A stretch of DNA of 22,110 nt, taken from the IMG/VR virus record IMGVR_UViG_3300038658_000146, positions 1-22,110 of that record; one strand, 5' to 3'. This DNA comes from a virus. This document shows, one piece after another, positions 2,007 to 9,197 of this stretch; positions within the stretch are counted from its first letter, which is position 1, and every line of letters begins with the position of its first letter. Below the pieces are notes generated by a model. It saw only the letters and a program-made list of their open reading frames with translations, made no database searches and had not been told where the DNA came from. The position numbers and the translations under genes were made by a program.

Positions 2007-3719
2007 TTACCTTCGCCAGAACAGGCCGCGCTCGATTTCTTCGTCGCCTTCAACTTTGCCTATCGGCTCTCGGCCCGATGGGTCACCATCTCGAACGATA
2101 TTGTCATATTGTTCTACCCAGTCCACATTATTAACATATCCATCGTTTTGCTCGTTTTCGGTGTCATCAGAGTCCTGCATCATGACACGCGGCCATGGCT
2201 CATGCTGTGGAACACGATTAGTCCATGGTGCCAGTTGGGTTAAATCTAAGTCAGGGTCAGGATTAGCAGCCAAGCTTTCATCGTTAATTTCGTTGATATC
2301 TGGGGTGTCAGTTGGTGATGGTGGCCCACTACCACCATGTACATGTGAGTTATACTTGGTTCGTAGGTCGTTTACATCCCCGACAAATTCATCCAAGAAA
2401 TTCATTAGGTCGTTGACCGTAGTATCTTTGCCAGAAACTCTGAAATCTATATTAGGACTATCAAGTTTAATGTTTGCTAGTGATTCAATAAACATTTCAC
2501 CATCAGATTCAAGGTTTAGCCGTCCCGTCAAATCTATATCGGTATTACCTGCAACATTTGCAAGTAAATTTTGACCAACTGCAATACGCATATTTTCTTC
2601 TGTTTTAAGATGTAGATCATTGCTGGCTTGGATGCGGATATCACCATCGGGCACAGGGTCACTCAGCGGCGTTTGTCCTCGGGTATCCCCAGCATACATC
2701 GAAATGAACTTACCGGCCTTCATGCGGATAGACTCACCCGCACTTATGTTGATGTCCTTTTCAGCATGTACGGATAGACGGCGCTCGGCATACAAATCAA
2801 CGTTACCAGCGTAGTCCATTTCTACCCAACCCTTACCACCACTAGTCCCAATATACATGCGCTCATTCGTATCATCAAGTAGAACTTGAGCACCAGCAGT
2901 TGTTCGAATCTTTATTCTAGAGTTGAACGGTCTATCATCTAATGTGATACTGTGGAATCCCGGTGTAGTAAACGTATACGTCTTAGGGGATAGGAATGAT
3001 CCGATATTCTTGTATGCGGTCCAATCGTATCCATGTTCTCCCAGTTTTTCCTTGACCCAATCATCTATCTCATTATTTGAAATTGTGTTATAGTCATCAT
3101 CAACGTAAGCTTCTTTATCGTTAGATGGGGGTTCGGTAATCGAGGTTACCTGATAATCAGCACCGCGCGTTTTCCACTCTGCTGAATCTGTTTCCTGCTT
3201 GAATGCTTCTTGTAGTTTGTTGTATGTTGGCTGAATAGGATTACCAGTTGAAGTCAAAGGACCATCAACCTTATCATTTCCGTGTTTGAATCGACCATTA
3301 CCTATCGTATGCGTTTCTTGGTGACTTGGGAAGCACCCAATAAAGTATCTGCGTCGTGGGTCACCATTGATGCATCCTACTAGAACATGGGCACCAATTT
3401 CAGGGACTGCCCAAAATCCATAGTGCATGGGTCCGTTACTTGTAGCGTTATCTTCCATAGAACCACGTACATATTGATTCTGATTAACCGCACCCCCAAA
3501 CGGTGATACGTATGCACTCCACGGAACATGTAACAGCTTTTTAGGATCATCGTTATATGCTGGGCAAAAGGCTCTAACTCTGCCCTGCTGCAAAGGATCA
3601 TCATTATCTACAACAAACCCAATAGACAGATGATTAGTGAGGTTTGTTAGATCGCCGTTTTCTGCACTGTGTACTATGAAATCATGTAGTAGATTCTCAA
3701 CACTGGAATCAATCTGCAT
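2007..3719 (-). CDS. 5: Baseplate hub / central spike protein, gp5-like, no lysozyme domain
   Basis: 570 residues. Residues about 30-140 form the gp5/VgrG-type OB domain: QQGRVRAFCPAYNDD, then VPEIGAHVLVGCINGDPRRR and YFIGCFP. Residues about 255-430 are short repeated beta strands (KDINISAG, IRMKAGKF, NMRIAVG and similar), as in triple-stranded beta-helix needles. HVHGGSG (459-465) is the usual motif after such needles. A polar acidic tail of about 100 residues follows, with tryptophans and PWPRVMMQD. T4 gp5 carries a lysozyme domain between OB and helix; here residues 140-255 are acidic and show no lysozyme pattern. The role is the puncturing spike at the hub centre. The start overlaps the upstream stop by one base (TAATG), so it is co-translated with the preceding gene. 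Confidence 0.85.
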   Translation of the reverse strand: MQIDSSVENLLHDFIVHSAENGDLTNLTNHLSIGFVVDNDDPLQQGRVRAFCPAYNDDPKKLLHVPWSAYVSPFGGAVNQNQYVRGSMEDNATSNGPMHYGFWAVPEIGAHVLVGCINGDPRRRYFIGCFPSHQETHTIGNGRFKHGNDKVDGPLTSTGNPIQPTYNKLQEAFKQETDSAEWKTRGADYQVTSITEPPSNDKEAYVDDDYNTISNNEIDDWVKEKLGEHGYDWTAYKNIGSFLSPKTYTFTTPGFHSITLDDRPFNSRIKIRTTAGAQVLLDDTNERMYIGTSGGKGWVEMDYAGNVDLYAERRLSVHAEKDINISAGESIRMKAGKFISMYAGDTRGQTPLSDPVPDGDIRIQASNDLHLKTEENMRIAVGQNLLANVAGNTDIDLTGRLNLESDGEMFIESLANIKLDSPNIDFRVSGKDTTVNDLMNFLDEFVGDVNDLRTKYNSHVHGGSGPPSPTDTPDINEINDESLAANPDPDLDLTQLAPWTNRVPQHEPWPRVMMQDSDDTENEQNDGYVNNVDWVEQYDNIVRDGDPSGREPIGKVEGDEEIERGLFWRR

Positions 3720-6016
3720 TAGCCACCACTCCTTGCGTCCGTTGGTTTTTCAGAACCGCTACCACTTGGATTCAATAAAGACACATTTTCCGGCCTATTA
3801 TCATTTGCAGTCAATCGATCAAGATCTTGTTGTGCTAATTCACGTGTTTTGATTTGTTCGGCTAATACTTTTTCTAGTATCTCTTTTAGAGTATCAGATT
3901 CTGTCTGTTTAATTCGGTTTTCTATTATAGCTTCACGCCCACGGGTATTACTAATTTTTCGAAGAAGCTCACCCATTTGTGTTTCCGGTACACCAAATAA
4001 CGCTTCCTCCGTGGCGTATACAGAACTACCAATATACGCCATGGAGGAAAAGTTATCCGGATTTTTGCCTATATTGATGTGCTGCAACGGGTCGTTTATC
4101 TTGGTGCCCAGAAACCAACCCGTTGCTGCCGCTGATGCTGTCGCAAGTACAGGGGCAGCAATTTTGGTAGCAACATTAGCCAGAAGCGTACCGCTAAATA
4201 CAGAACCGGTCATGCTCTTAAAGAATCCAACAACAGGCAATCCAATTGCTGATTGTGCTATACCACGCATATAAGAATTTATGGTAGCATTAATACTTTG
4301 TAGTTCTGACGTTTGTGACTTTGATTGATTTAATCGAGCGTCTTGTGCTTTAGCAACTGCTTCCACTTCACCTGACTGTCTACGTCCGCGTAGCATTAAT
4401 TCTTCTGTTCCTGCACCTTTCATCAAAATATCAATAGCTTGAATGGCGGACATTCCTTGCATTGTGCCCGATGCGGCGGCATCCATTCGGGAATTAGTTG
4501 CAAGCTCACGCATTTGATTATACAACTTATCAAATTCAGCACCATTCCCTTCTCGCTCTACTGTCTCTCGCGACATAACCCCGCGTTGAATTAGTGCTAT
4601 TTGTTTAGGGTCCATGCCTAATGACCGTGCCAATTGTCCAGCATACCCTGACTGTACCAGTCTTTCGGAACCTGTTCGAGTCCGTTGCTTTGCTAAGAAT
4701 TTGCGATAAGCTATAAATTCATCGATATTGAGACCCACCGATTTCTGCAAAGTAGTAAACGAGCTAGTTAACATAGCGATAACATTTTCACCTTGATTCA
4801 TTGCAAGTGTTAATGCTTGAAAATCTACATCACCTGCAAGTCCTGCCAGTTCAGAAAAGACTTCATCAGCGAGCATATCACTTGTGGATGCAACATCTTC
4901 TACACCCTGCCTCAATGATTCTAGATTCTCCGGCGTTATTTGAACACCCAGCTTACTTAGAATATTGAAAGATTTCGAAATAGCATCTAGTTGTTGTGCT
5001 CCGACGAATCCAAATTCTTTTTCTAATGTATCGCCAAATTGGGCTAATGTCTGTTCGGTTCCACCTATTGTACCTTCGGTTACATCCAATAGACTAAGTG
5101 TTGAATTATTCAACGCTGCCGCAAGTGTTGATCTATTTTTGGCAGCAAATCTAGCAACATCTTGTGCAGATGTACCAAAATCAAGTGTATCAAACTGACC
5201 CTCAACCATACCAGTAAAACTATCTGCTAGTCCTTGAAACCGTTTGCCAAGTTCAGCGGGCAAAAAAAATGATGCCGCAATATCAGTAAACACACCCTCA
5301 AAAGGATTCCCCTGACCTTGTGGAGAAAAACTCAAACTCGCATTCTGAGCGGTTAGTGAAACTTGGGAAGATATTCCCGCAAATGCTGTTATTGCCGCCT
5401 TCCCTGCTATTTCTAGGTTATCTCTGAATTCTTTAACAGACGAATTTTTCTGTTTTTCCCGCGTATCATGTCGAGCTTTTGCAGCCGTGTGTGCCCTCTT
5501 GCTCGCCACTTCCCTTGCCTTTAATGCGCGTGTGGCGTCTGAATATGCATTCGCTATTTCTTCGGAACTTGAAGTGGCTGTTAATTTAGAAAAAGAAGAA
5601 TCAAGATTTACTCCAGCCTGCCTCAAGTTACTCATAGTGGATTGGACTTTCTTAAACATGGTTGCAGAACTCTTATTATCGGCAATAAGACCCTGCATGC
5701 TCTTGGAATGCTTGTCAAGAACATCAGTCGCCTTTGAATACTTGTCCATAGACTTCTGGTATCTGTTTTCGGACTCTGCAAGCTTTTGAGTTTCCCGTCT
5801 AAGGTTGCTGAAAGCCTTAATCAAACCGGCAGATTCATTTTTTATATCATCTGTGCCGGTGAATACACCCTTTGTTTTCTTTTCAGTCGCAACATTCCCA
5901 AGACCACTTGCTTTTCGGTTCTTAGCAATGTAGTCACTACTTGCACCTGAAACCTTAGATAGTTGAGATTCTATCTTCTTCAGTGTGGTTAGAATGTCGG
6001 TCTGTGTATCAGCCAT
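3719..6016 (-). CDS. Putative tail tape measure protein
   Basis: 765 residues, rich in Ala, Ser, Lys and Gln. Amphipathic coiled-coil-like helices lie near 5-30, 60-135 and 690-735. A hydrophobic stretch at about 585-640 (from IGLPVVGFFKS through the Ala-rich part to GWFLGTKI) resembles the membrane-seeking segment of tape measure proteins. The tail is low complexity (SGSGSEKPTDARSGG). Support for the call: length, composition, position at the head of the hub operon, and divergence from a gene with a tail-chaperone-type frameshift signal. I do not recognise T4 gp29 by sequence. If it is the tape measure, the usual 1.5 angstrom per residue gives a tail of roughly 100-115 nm. It could instead be another hub or internal tail protein. 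ATG 6016 has AAGGA 9 nt upstream. Confidence 0.55.
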   Translation of the reverse strand: MADTQTDILTTLKKIESQLSKVSGASSDYIAKNRKASGLGNVATEKKTKGVFTGTDDIKNESAGLIKAFSNLRRETQKLAESENRYQKSMDKYSKATDVLDKHSKSMQGLIADNKSSATMFKKVQSTMSNLRQAGVNLDSSFSKLTATSSSEEIANAYSDATRALKAREVASKRAHTAAKARHDTREKQKNSSVKEFRDNLEIAGKAAITAFAGISSQVSLTAQNASLSFSPQGQGNPFEGVFTDIAASFFLPAELGKRFQGLADSFTGMVEGQFDTLDFGTSAQDVARFAAKNRSTLAAALNNSTLSLLDVTEGTIGGTEQTLAQFGDTLEKEFGFVGAQQLDAISKSFNILSKLGVQITPENLESLRQGVEDVASTSDMLADEVFSELAGLAGDVDFQALTLAMNQGENVIAMLTSSFTTLQKSVGLNIDEFIAYRKFLAKQRTRTGSERLVQSGYAGQLARSLGMDPKQIALIQRGVMSRETVEREGNGAEFDKLYNQMRELATNSRMDAAASGTMQGMSAIQAIDILMKGAGTEELMLRGRRQSGEVEAVAKAQDARLNQSKSQTSELQSINATINSYMRGIAQSAIGLPVVGFFKSMTGSVFSGTLLANVATKIAAPVLATASAAATGWFLGTKINDPLQHINIGKNPDNFSSMAYIGSSVYATEEALFGVPETQMGELLRKISNTRGREAIIENRIKQTESDTLKEILEKVLAEQIKTRELAQQDLDRLTANDNRPENVSLLNPSGSGSEKPTDARSGG

Positions 6017-6126: not shown

Positions 6127-7086
6127 ATGTCTGAAATCAACCCACTACTAAGTAAAATACATCTTCCCGGCAGAAGGTTCAGATTACCTTCTATGGGTCT
6201 ATTTTACAATAACGGTGAAATAGATGAAAGTGTAGTTGATGGTGAAATTCAAGTATTTTCAATGACTGCCATTGATGAAATCAGTATGCGTTCTCCCGAA
6301 TATCTGTTCACGGGAGAAGCAATAACTAGGGTATTTAACCGATGCATTCCAGAAATTAAAAAACCCATGGAATTACTATCAATTGACGTTGACTTCTTGT
6401 TGACTGCACTGCGGATAGTATCCTATGGTGATGTTATTCGTATAGCACTTCGCTGTCCTAAATGTGAAGAGAAGCAGCAGGAAAGAAATAGTGCGAAGCT
6501 TGATACCTTCATGGTAGAAATAGAAGAGAAAGCAAAGGAGCAGGAAATAGATTTCGATTTGGCTTGGAATAGTCCAGAGGTAGTCGAAAAAGCTGAACGT
6601 ATAATGTCCAAAATGTCTACATCACATAACCATACTATCAACCTCAATAATATATTGACTAACCAAACGAAAGAAGTTACACCGGATGATATGGAAACAT
6701 ATACCGTTACATTAAGTAATGGACAAGTACTGAAAATGTCTCCTTTGAGGTTTAGTAACGGTGTAATAGCCCTCCAAACGCAGGACAGCGAAATCAATAC
6801 TAATTTGGATGCAGCAGAAGATTATGTTAGTTTTGTTATATCCGCGTGTATCGATTCAATTGATGGTCATTCAATTAAAGCAGATATTGTTGATTGGGCT
6901 AAAAAGCTGCCTATATCGCTAAAGGATGAGATTTCAAACCACATGGAGAAGCAGGGATCATTTGGAACCAAGTTTGATTACAACATAGTTTGCCCGGATT
7001 GCGAGCTTAAGAGAGAGGGTGATGCTATGCTTAACCCCATAACTTTTTTTACAATACCCTCAGAATCGACGGGCCGGAAAAGCTAA
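6127..7086 (+). CDS. 26: Baseplate hub / tail assembly protein, gp26/gp51 family (zero-frame product)
   Basis: 319 residues. The N-terminal part has the T4 gp26/gp51 baseplate-protein pattern: LPSMGLFYNNGEI, then VFSMTAIDE, a cysteine-containing CIPEI, and LLTALRIVSYG. It is followed by a split zinc-ribbon-like set: C110-x2-C113 (CPKC) and C289-x2-C292 (CPDC). The region 120-230 between them is polar. T4 gp26 is about 208 residues, so this is longer. In T4 these proteins act in hub assembly. AGGA precedes ATG 6127 by 7 nt. Near the 3' end the codons TTT TTT (F307, F308) form a slippery site (see 7044-7111); a fraction of ribosomes probably continue in the -1 frame. Which T4 protein is the true orthologue (26 or 51) cannot be settled by eye. 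Confidence 0.75.
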   Translation: MSEINPLLSKIHLPGRRFRLPSMGLFYNNGEIDESVVDGEIQVFSMTAIDEISMRSPEYLFTGEAITRVFNRCIPEIKKPMELLSIDVDFLLTALRIVSYGDVIRIALRCPKCEEKQQERNSAKLDTFMVEIEEKAKEQEIDFDLAWNSPEVVEKAERIMSKMSTSHNHTINLNNILTNQTKEVTPDDMETYTVTLSNGQVLKMSPLRFSNGVIALQTQDSEINTNLDAAEDYVSFVISACIDSIDGHSIKADIVDWAKKLPISLKDEISNHMEKQGSFGTKFDYNIVCPDCELKREGDAMLNPITFFTIPSESTGRKS

Positions 7087-7111
7087 AGAAACTTTTAGCT
7101 GATTTTGAGGG
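7044..7111 (+). promoter_or_regulatory. Programmed -1 ribosomal frameshift signal
   Basis: Seen directly: T TTT TTT at 7044-7050, in the correct phase (zero frame reads ACT TTT TTT ACA). After a 6-nt spacer (7051-7056), CCCTCAGAATC (7057-7067) pairs with GATTTTGAGGG (7101-7111): 11 bp with one G-U. Inside, AGCTAAA (7081-7087) pairs with TTTAGCT (7094-7100) as a 7-bp hairpin that abuts the outer stem. The zero-frame stop (7084-7086) lies in the inner hairpin. Slippery heptamer, 5-9 nt spacer and stable stem form the standard -1 frameshift layout. Frameshifting itself is inferred. Confidence 0.85.
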
Positions 7112-7292
7112 GACCGTTCAACAAATAGTGAAAGATTGTGTTATAGTTTCCCATTATCATCACGGTATAAGCTATGAGCGCGCTTTTGAGCTAACACCCT
7201 TTGAAAAAGATATAGCAGCACAGTTCATAGAAGAAGAAAATGAACGTGAGGTAAAACTAAGAAGTGCCATGTTTGGGGCAAAGGTTAGATGA
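7050..7292 (+). CDS. -1 frameshift extension of the gp26-family protein (fusion 6127-7292)
   Basis: After the slip at 7050 the -1 frame is open for 80 codons to TGA 7290-7292, giving a 388-residue fusion (308 zero-frame residues plus 80). The extension starts YNTLRIDGPEKLKKLL, contains SHYHHGISYERAF and LTPFEKDIAAQFIEEENERE, and is helical and charged like the T parts of tail chaperones. It has no ATG except one 7 codons before its end; GTG 7128 is the only plausible alternative start and has a poorly spaced GAGGGG upstream. The TGA overlaps the next ATG as ATGA, which makes sense only if this frame is translated. By analogy with lambda G/GT, the minor product may recruit tube subunits to the tape measure. 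Confidence 0.8.
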   Translation, partial: YNTLRIDGPEKLKKLLADFEGTVQQIVKDCVIVSHYHHGISYERAFELTPFEKDIAAQFIEEENEREVKLRSAMFGAKVR

Positions 7293-7660
7293 TATCATAT
7301 AAGAGGATAATAGTTGCGGGCAGCCGCACGTACACTAACAAAGCAAGAGTATTTGAACTCTTGGACAAGATCGCTGAAGATCAATCCAAGAAAGGATGTC
7401 TCATTGAAATTGTGTCGGGTCTCGCTAAGGGACCTGATATGTTTGGAAAAGAATGGGCACATAAGAACGATTTCACTGTTCATGAGTTTCCCGCTAACTG
7501 GGACAAGTACGGAAAGCGTGCCGGTTATTTGCGAAATGTAGAAATGGCTGAATTCTCTGACGCGCTTCTCGCATTTCATGTAAATAATTCAAGAGGTACA
7601 AAACACATGATTGATATTGCATACAAGAATGACCTACAGGTAGCAATAGTTACATCCTAA
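7289..7660 (+). CDS. SLOG superfamily protein (DUF2493/YspA-like)
   Basis: 123 residues with a Rossmann-like SLOG pattern: IIVAGSRTY at 7-15, SGLAKGPD at about 43-50, PANWDKYGKRAGYLRN at 68-83, a D-A-L-L-A-F strand, and SRGTKHMID at about 102-110. Proteins of this family bind nucleotides or nucleotide-derived ligands; DUF2493 members are common in phages and plasmids but their roles are mostly unknown. The start overlaps the stop of the frameshift extension (ATGA) and the Shine-Dalgarno (AAAGG) is close, so expression is likely coupled to the frameshifted frame. Presence in a tail-assembly operon is unexpected. Family call is confident; function is not assigned. Confidence 0.85.
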   Translation: MISYKRIIVAGSRTYTNKARVFELLDKIAEDQSKKGCLIEIVSGLAKGPDMFGKEWAHKNDFTVHEFPANWDKYGKRAGYLRNVEMAEFSDALLAFHVNNSRGTKHMIDIAYKNDLQVAIVTS

Positions 7661-7696: not shown

Positions 7697-8461
7697 ATGG
7701 CTACAAATTATTCATCAACACCTTCCGATTTTATAAACAACGAAGTTGCAATTAAAACACCATATAGGCAACCTAATCGTTCGTTTAGAAAACTCTACGG
7801 TTATCAAGACCAACTCATCGCAAAATACCAAAGCAACAACCGTACTATTGTGCATAATACTCGGCAATCGGGTGTAACCACGGCTACGTGGGCTTATGTT
7901 TTATGGTACAGCATCTACAATTCTGACAAAAATATACTAATAACATCGACAACTGTTGATTCCGCGCGTTCAATCATGGTAAACATAAGAAATGCTTTGG
8001 AATCTATGTCTGATGAGTTAACGCCAAAAATAACAACGTTCAATAGAGATAAAGTAGCATTTTCTAACGGGTCTTCTATTTCTATTGTAGCCGCTACTGC
8101 TAATGTAGTTAGAGGGGAAACCATTTCTTTATTGTGGTGTGATGATTTTGCTTTTTATAATAAACAAAATGAATTTTGGGATAATGTTACTCCCGCGTTG
8201 GGTATATCTTCCAAAGTTATAATCACATCATGTTTTGGTATTACCACATCAGAAGATAATTTGTTTGTTCAAATGTTGCATGATGCGGCTAGTCCCCAAA
8301 ACCAATATGCTGTACCAATGAATGTTATGTCCCATGTTGTAATTCCGTGGGATGCCCCACCTAATCGTAATAATCTTTTTAAAGAAAGTATGATTGCCAA
8401 TTTGGGGATAGAAAATTGGCTTACAGAGTACGAAGGTAAGTTGGTGACAATTGATGATTAA
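7697..8461 (+). CDS. Stand-alone, catalytically degenerate terminase large-subunit ATPase domain (gp17-like)
   Basis: 254 residues that follow the T4 gp17 ATPase domain closely: adenine-motif-like GYQDQLIAKY, Walker A region NTRQSGVTTATW (54-65), FSNGSSISIVAATANVVRG (122-140), Walker B region LLWCDDFAF (145-153), then KVIITSCFG (173-181). Key residues differ: Walker A lysine is V60; the alternative lysine position of deviant terminase Walker A motifs is N54; the catalytic Glu after the Walker B Asp is D150; the coupling motif TTT is TSC (177-179). The protein stops at EYEGKLVTIDD, where T4 gp17 passes to its nuclease domain, so no nuclease is present. The frame is intact with GGAG 8 nt before ATG, so it is not an obvious pseudogene. 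It probably cannot hydrolyse ATP normally; a regulatory or structural packaging role is inference. Confidence 0.8.
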   Translation: MATNYSSTPSDFINNEVAIKTPYRQPNRSFRKLYGYQDQLIAKYQSNNRTIVHNTRQSGVTTATWAYVLWYSIYNSDKNILITSTTVDSARSIMVNIRNALESMSDELTPKITTFNRDKVAFSNGSSISIVAATANVVRGETISLLWCDDFAFYNKQNEFWDNVTPALGISSKVIITSCFGITTSEDNLFVQMLHDAASPQNQYAVPMNVMSHVVIPWDAPPNRNNLFKESMIANLGIENWLTEYEGKLVTIDD

Positions 8462-9197
8462 CATAGTTACCATCGACCCTTCACCAATTGGAACTGCCGT
8501 CACCGTCAATGGTGTGCCGTACTCGTTTCCATCCGAAAGCTCAGCAGTTTTAAAGAGCGGTAAGCTTAGATTATGGTTTGATATGTGCTCGGATTATGCT
8601 ACAATCGAGCCAATTGATACAAGTTACAATAATGAAAAATCTTATTCACAGCTTGAAATGAACAAGCTAGTGACCTTCCAGAAAACTTCAAATTTAATCC
8701 GCAAGACCGTTGACAACAACTGCAACCCTGCGTACAATACGCTTTGCCTAATAGAAGGCTATAGTTATTCGTCTGCTGAGGGTCCATTAATTGACTTGGT
8801 GACGTTTGGCACAATGCTTCGTAGACAGTTCTTCACTAGAACTAATACGGAAATGGTTGTTCTTGCACCATCCACGGTCAAGAGACTCGCAGCGAAATTA
8901 ACTTATCCAGCTATTCAAAAGGGTAAAAAAGTTGAGTACCGAAATAATGAAGGTATCGCTGGTGGTAGTTTCAAGAAGCCAGACATATATAAGGTACTTA
9001 CAGAGAATGATGAGATAGATTCTGACTGGGTTAATTTTCTAAGGGATATTCAAAAAAACGTAATTGCACTCAAGAATGTCCCAAAACCCATAGAAGATAT
9101 CAACGACAGTGTGGTTATGTACTACATTGCCGAGAGAACATATAGAGACTGTAAACAAGATTATAACCAGACCATAAGAGAACTTAAAAAAGCGTAG
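8454..9197 (+). CDS. RuvC-like RNase H-fold nuclease (Holliday junction resolvase type)
   Basis: 247 residues. RuvC-type acidic motifs are in order: D8 in MINIVTIDPSPIGTAV, E101 in LCLIEGYSYSS, and D215/D218 in EDINDSVVMYYIAE. LIDLVTFGTMLRR and LAPSTVKRLAAK match the helix and strand that follow the second motif in phage RuvC-like resolvases. Such enzymes cleave branched DNA; T4 uses an unrelated enzyme (gp49) to clear branches before packaging. ATG 8454 lies inside the preceding gene (8-nt overlap), with GGTGA 6 nt upstream; an in-frame TTG 8451 is less likely. The pairing with a terminase-like ATPase domain suggests a packaging-linked role. A diverged terminase nuclease is the main alternative, since it shares the fold. 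Confidence 0.75.
   Translation: MINIVTIDPSPIGTAVTVNGVPYSFPSESSAVLKSGKLRLWFDMCSDYATIEPIDTSYNNEKSYSQLEMNKLVTFQKTSNLIRKTVDNNCNPAYNTLCLIEGYSYSSAEGPLIDLVTFGTMLRRQFFTRTNTEMVVLAPSTVKRLAAKLTYPAIQKGKKVEYRNNEGIAGGSFKKPDIYKVLTENDEIDSDWVNFLRDIQKNVIALKNVPKPIEDINDSVVMYYIAERTYRDCKQDYNQTIRELKKA

Follow-up and report, generated by a model that had tools for sequence, protein, structure and literature searches.

Tail assembly chaperones made by -1 frameshifting, among them lambda G/GT, were reportedly described by Xu, Hendrix and Duda in 2004, and gp26 and gp51 are said to have been described as the tail assembly chaperones of T4-like phages by Vladimirov et al. in 2022. A passage of the 2016 review by Atkins et al. 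treats the tail-chaperone frameshift as conserved in long-tailed phages with the exception of T4 (PMC5009743). Where a T4 review deals with gp26 and gp51, both are regarded as hub assembly chaperones, with gp51 needed for assembly and absent from the final particle, yet genetic studies are quoted as supporting the presence of gp26 in the hub itself (PMC3004832). Two later papers cite Vladimirov et al. 2022, the PRFect paper for a pair of genes in some T4-like phages, a short one and a long fusion (PMC10885494), and the paper on phage Adele for T4-like phages having poly-T signals in their TAC-N genes, which it treats as known (PMC12846349). Going by these citing passages, the chaperone identity of gp26/gp51 has been published, and the same probably holds for frameshifting in certain T4-like phages. 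Among the matches listed in the literature search, no other paper on a frameshift site in the gp26/gp51 family was found beyond Vladimirov et al., PRFect and Adele, and what may be new here is the breadth of the survey, the stem 6 nt downstream of the heptamer, the A AAT TTT and +1/-2 variants and the transition from KVP40 to T4.

The window gene and its predicted slip site

The window, meaning the whole stretch analysed, is an IMG/VR virus record of 22,110 bases, assigned here to a T4-type myophage, probably one with a large genome. The protein encoded at 6127-7086 matches the Pfam family T4_baseplate (PF12322) with 48 bits at a cut-off of 24.5 and phrog_150 (baseplate hub) at 4e-15, and the gene is thereby a member of the T4 gp26/gp51 family (PF12322, phrog_150/634). 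From the slip site, 11 codons remain to the end of this frame, and the predicted fusion product has 388 aa (Table 1). The fold of 7051-7125 has an energy of -21.6 kcal/mol with a z of -3.05, and none of 200 shuffles was equally stable. The coordinates and the fold bear out the first-pass annotation in describing a phase-correct T TTT TTT with a 6-nt spacer and an 11-bp stem with one G-U, a zero-frame stop inside the structure and a -1 frame open for 80 codons, whose stop forms ATGA with the next gene; the inner hairpin stacked on the stem is likewise present, its length being 8 bp and not the 7 bp given there. Further along the window, an ORF of only 254 aa (7697-8461) matches the ATPase part of the terminase large subunit, and the ORF after it (8451-9197) matches a RuvC-like resolvase family.

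Table 1. Features of the predicted frameshift locus, in window coordinates
Feature	Position	Strand	Basis and details
Zero-frame gene, putative short chaperone (TAC-N, gp26-type), 319 aa	6127..7086	+	PF12322, phrog_150, AlphaFold pLDDT 89.5
Slippery heptamer T TTT TTT, in phase, F307-F308	7044..7050	+	FF invariant in 14/14 proteins (alignment A1); TTT 7045-7047 = F307, TTT 7048-7050 = F308
-1 frame extension (TAC-C), 80 codons + stop TGA	7050..7292	+	Three predicted helices; first possible start at 27th codon; begins at TAC 7050-7052 (Y309) directly after Phe308, open until TGA 7290-7292
6-nt spacer ACAATA	7051..7056	+	Fold; T-run relatives most often have their helix start at offset 6
11-bp stem, 5' arm	7057..7067	+	RNA fold; pairs with 7101-7111, one G-U; 13-nt bulge before inner hairpin
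Inner hairpin, 8 bp, 4-nt loop, stacked on outer stem	7081..7100	+	RNA fold; arms 7081-7088/7093-7100; contains zero-frame stop TAA 7084-7086
11-bp stem, 3' arm	7101..7111	+	RNA fold
ATGA overlap, extension stop / next ORF start	7289..7292	+	Next ORF 7289-7660

Conservation of the heptamer and of the downstream structure

The survey comprised 181 loci, namely the window, 20 named phages (XacN1, RAS14, Atu_ph07, PA5oct, RaK2, Phosso, 121Q, SCTP-2, Vibrio 2.275, XaC1, Munch, BF, XbC2, CBB, GAP32, S-SM1, LIS04, SP-15 and two uncultured huge phages) and 160 IMG/VR viral contigs, one set of which was the best 80 of 569. These loci include copies, six IMG/VR records being apparently identical to named phages and L027-L029 being near-copies of the window; such copies are allowed for by clustering of the 174 heptamer-bearing loci into 110 clusters at 90% protein identity. 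Counting as positive any locus with an in-phase heptamer no more than 75 nt from the zero-frame stop and a -1 frame open for at least 150 nt past that stop, the heptamer and the open extension were found together in 171 of the 181 loci, with TTTTTTC in 111, AAATTTT in 46 and TTTTTTT in 14. The controls were 293 further ORFs (150 aa or longer) from the 110 representative loci; the heptamer was present in 5 of them, an open -1 frame in 61 and both in 1. Identity to the zero-frame protein of the window is only 20-36% in 13 named phages. Where the extension of a T-run locus is complete (125 loci), the zero-frame stop always lies 3-63 nt past the heptamer, and the extension measures 64-81 codons. 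The heptamer with a -1 extension was also observed in 78 of 80 cyanophage-type loci (the best 80 of 293), the two others being L244 with an early stop and one with a cut extension, as well as in KVP40 (T TTT TTC), phiM7 (T TTT TTT) and OLIVR6.

The remaining ten of the 181 loci are made up of three with a heptamer and an extension cut by the contig end, two cut genes and five exceptions. Three of these exceptions, LIS04, LR756508 and SP-15, carry the extension in the +1/-2 frame, and the type of shift has therefore changed within the family. In L037, the T run is out of phase with the extension present, and in L040 an early stop lies near a tandem duplication, with the rest of the gene, ending SFF, in another frame. 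D509 has no canonical heptamer. Since LIS04, SP-15, LR756508, D509 and L037 deviate, the signal is not universal; homologues lacking the heptamer, which had been named beforehand as a case against the frameshift, thus exist but are few (the five exceptions among 181, in two of which the contig or the phase is visibly faulty, and D509). The conservation in homologues, proposed in the first-pass annotation as a check, held for the heptamer and the -1 frame, and the stem was recovered in about half of the T-run representatives. The extensions in the +1 (= -2) frame occupy 4685-4925 in L012 (LIS04), 3690-3916 in L024 (SP-15) and 3700-4000 in L015 (LR756508), preceded by a TTTTTT run in LIS04 and SP-15 and by no such run in LR756508. 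At about 3970-4012 of L040, a short tandem duplication coincides with the early stop of the chaperone gene.

Compared with shuffled sequences, the 75-nt windows after the heptamer have a mean z of -1.47, and 32 of 110 lie below -2, as against a mean of -0.21 for windows upstream (5 of 110 below -2) and -0.37 for windows further downstream (12 of 108). In 21 of 90 T-run representatives, where 1.1 would be expected, a maximal helix of 8 bp or more begins precisely 6 nt past the heptamer, and in 45 of 90, with an expectation of 7.1, one begins at offsets 2-8; when earlier starts are included, helices pass through offset 6 in 31 of 90. As the other 45 T-run representatives lack any 8-bp or longer helix beginning at offsets 2-8, and RaK2, Munch and XbC2 show no unusual downstream stability (z above 0), the stem is common but not obligatory. 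Its sequence is unrelated between clades, reading CCCTCAGAATC in the window, CCATCAAGTCC in XacN1 and GGCTCTTTGT in Atu_ph07. In the AAATTTT group, helices of at least 8 bp at offsets 0-19 were found in none of 19, and helices of at least 6 bp starting at offset 6 in 13 of 19, which prove little because the sequences look alike within this clade. An SD-like stimulator upstream of the heptamer was considered as well and rejected, being present in 1 of 110.

The same data bear on whether the two frames are joined by transcriptional slippage on the T run instead of by ribosomal slippage, an explanation that would suit the seven T of the window and the T runs of 125 of the 171 positive loci. However, 46 of the 171 use A AAT TTT and 111 have six T followed by C, and a preferred helix start 6 nt past the heptamer is needless for slippage of the polymerase. 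Ribosomal -1 slippery sites follow the rule X XXY YYZ, to which A AAT TTT conforms, and this speaks against polymerase slippage, which we consider improbable. The preferred reading is a ribosomal shift in which the two Phe tRNAs would re-pair in tandem in the -1 frame, as both T TTT TTT and T TTT TTC would allow.

The extension and its relation to T4 gp26 and gp51

In 42 disjoint close pairs of relatives, substitutions beyond the overlap are distributed over codon positions 1/2/3 of the -1 frame as 397/223/931, a pattern similar to that of the upstream zero frame (749/448/1870). Codons with a single change are synonymous/nonsynonymous in a ratio of 654/240 when read in the -1 frame, 121/820 in the 0 frame and 73/836 in the +1 frame. 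The extension thus evolves as protein in the -1 frame only, and it is predicted to form a confident helical unit (pLDDT 87.7). Searches with the 80-aa extension alone by tblastn in phages gave no match at E up to 1, and homologues were hence found via the zero-frame part. On 44 extensions, Pfam returned nothing consistent, and PHROGs returned phrog_18291 (no function) in 5 of 44 with a best value of 2e-36, other matches being weak; the window's own extension matched phrog_634 only at E 0.21. The best viral match in a fold search with the extension had E 0.06, and among 37 chains of solved structures compared nothing exceeded Z 3.8.

T4 genes 26 and 51 are separate and divergent. The C-terminus of T4 gp26 (...LKEFFELL) ends right past the FF that the heptamer encodes in relatives, and T4 DNA at these codons (GAGTTCTTTGAG) no longer contains an in-phase slippery heptamer, while gp51 continues beyond the FF point with the extension fused. 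A profile was built from 158 extensions, of which 108 represent the main survey and 50 are the unique extensions of the cyanophage set, KVP40, phiM7 and OLIVR6 included; it ranked all five gp51 tested above 59 decoy ORFs and 200 shuffles, with T4 gp51 at E 0.013 and no gp26 among the 14 matches listed. With the cyanophage-type profile alone, T4 gp51 was found at E 3e-4, and with the jumbo-phage profile alone only at E 1.0, yet above the decoys. The extensions are homologous to the C-terminus of gp51, a relation that is weaker with jumbo extensions alone and with the window's own extension. Consistent assignments come from PHROGs, where gp51 matches phrog_150 and phrog_634, gp26 matches phrog_150 and not phrog_634, and the small ORFs behind gp26 of S-SM1 and of KVP40, a member of T4's own family Straboviridae, are phrog_634. 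A 58-row tree places four gp26 and five gp51 together (97/87), within a group whose other members are frameshifting relatives and D509; the tree is unrooted, some of its branches are long, and it contains open forks.

These sequence comparisons support a correspondence of the zero-frame product to gp26 and of the predicted fused product to gp51, in line with the original suggestion that gp26/gp51 proteins are the T4-type equivalents of frameshifted tail chaperones. The simplest reading is that one duplication froze both products into the two genes of T4. On a broader scale, we lean towards a history in which frameshifting was ancestral in T4-type phages and was kept in jumbo, cyano- and rhizobial phages and KVP40, was replaced once in the T4 subgroup by a duplication that fixed gp26 as the short product and gp51 as the long one, with loss of the slip site, and changed to +1 or -2 in Listeria/Bacillus Thorneviruses. 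Descent from the two outputs of one ancestral frameshift gene could explain why a pair of similar "hub assembly" proteins exists in T4, and the two genes of T4, the exception made in the passage cited from the 2016 review (PMC5009743), are now placed among frameshifting relatives.

Annotation of the 80-codon part as a small separate ORF in XacN1, RAS14, Atu_ph07, Phosso, 121Q, SCTP-2 and others would agree with an independent gene, translated by re-initiation after the zero-frame stop. Against this, the first possible start in the window is only a GTG at the 27th codon, which makes the separately started gene foreseen as a refuting case unlikely here, and a scan for start codons alone found the first 21 extension codons to be devoid of ATG/GTG/TTG in 45 of 108 representatives and of ATG in 63 of 108; furthermore, the heptamer and the stem would serve no purpose, and T4-type gp51 has the extension fused. 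An independent gene is therefore very improbable, and under the preferred frameshift reading the small ORFs that follow gp26 in cyanophage and jumbo records as "gp51" or "hypothetical" probably encode the latter part of a fusion product and do not stand as separate genes. Genes annotated as "gp51 / baseplate hub assembly catalyst" lie within the gp26 -1 extension at L023:3573-3755, L271:2714-2875 and L273:2687-2827; these "gp51" genes of a cyanophage (L023) and of rhizobial phages (L271 and L273) are probably not separate.

Faulty sequencing or assembly of the T run in what is really a single uninterrupted gene, which a homopolymer junction might invite and which had been raised at the outset as a way of merging the frames, is excluded for practical purposes, as the same split point recurs in isolate genomes and many contigs, AAATTTT loci included, and the zero-frame stop follows within 3-63 nt in every complete T-run locus. 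The same seven T are also read in three near-identical contigs (L003-L005). The site is confirmed to be neither chance nor sequencing error.

Proposed mechanism and comparison with known systems

Established here are the anatomy of the site, its conservation, protein-level selection in the -1 frame and the homology of such extensions to the C-terminus of T4-type gp51. The best reading, to which we assign a probability of about 0.9, is a -1 programmed ribosomal frameshift in a tail assembly chaperone gene yielding a short and a long form; the occurrence of the slip and its rate are what we infer from the sequence. The majority of ribosomes would terminate at TAA 7084 and release the short, gp26-type chaperone, whereas a fraction would stall at the stem, with both Phe tRNAs re-pairing one base back on T TTT TTT, and continue for 80 codons to give the 388-aa, gp51-type long form. 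By analogy to lambda G/GT, the short form may coat the tape measure protein and the C-terminal helical part of the long form may recruit tube subunits.

A chaperone role is suggested by the analogy to lambda G/GT, by a moderate fold match to an HK97 protein and by the adjacency of a tape measure gene in SP-15 and LIS04, where the annotated tape measure gene lies downstream of the chaperone gene. Among solved structures compared with the zero-frame model, the HK97 tail assembly chaperone 2ob9 came first (Z 6.7, rmsd 4.8, 96/107 aligned), a score below the tool's safe level of Z 8 and on a par with that of a short unrelated match (Z 6.0), and Foldseek placed 2ob9 at rank 10 with E 1.8. The zero-frame family profile searched against PDB sequences gave a best E of 0.26, with a phage tail protein in none of 10 rows.

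The first-pass annotation had also labelled the divergent neighbour of the window gene (3719-6016, minus strand, 765 aa) as the putative tape measure gene. This label was not confirmed, as the protein has no Pfam match, no PDB match and one sub-threshold PHROG match (E 0.06), and BLASTP showed no significant similarity to the proteins at the corresponding place in PA5oct and Phosso; a sequence match of it to a tape measure protein was looked for (Pfam, PHROG, PDB, BLASTP) and not found. Genes placed like it are annotated as structural proteins in PA5oct and RaK2. On the reading of one frameshift gene with two products, the roles of gp26 and gp51, so far little understood, become directly testable.

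In comparison with lambda G/GT, the window family shares a second frame conserved as protein in the -1 reading only, but it is a T4-type sequence family with a T-run or AAATTTT heptamer, many of its members have a stem 6 nt downstream, and the window has no recognised tape measure gene directly downstream. The chaperone locus of Vandenendeviridae/Andersonviridae, as presented in passages of the phage Adele paper, resembles it in that the tail chaperone gene of a myovirus carries a conserved -1 frameshift and the downstream part is annotated as a separate gene, and differs in belonging to other phage families, in its GTTTTT motif and in its position upstream of the tape measure gene (PMC12846349). 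A further comparison is with gp26 and the small "gp51" of cyanophages (Kyanoviridae), where after T TTT TTC the -1 frame runs into the annotated "gp51"; the differences are two annotated genes in the S-SM1 record, likewise in rhizobial phiM7 and OLIVR6, and a shorter cyanophage extension of about 60-69 codons. With T4 gp26 and gp51, finally, the window has in common that its zero-frame product ends where gp26 ends, after FF, and that its predicted fusion has the C-terminal part of gp51, whereas T4 encodes the two proteins in divergent genes with no heptamer at the FF codons and the window encodes them in one gene with a predicted frameshift.
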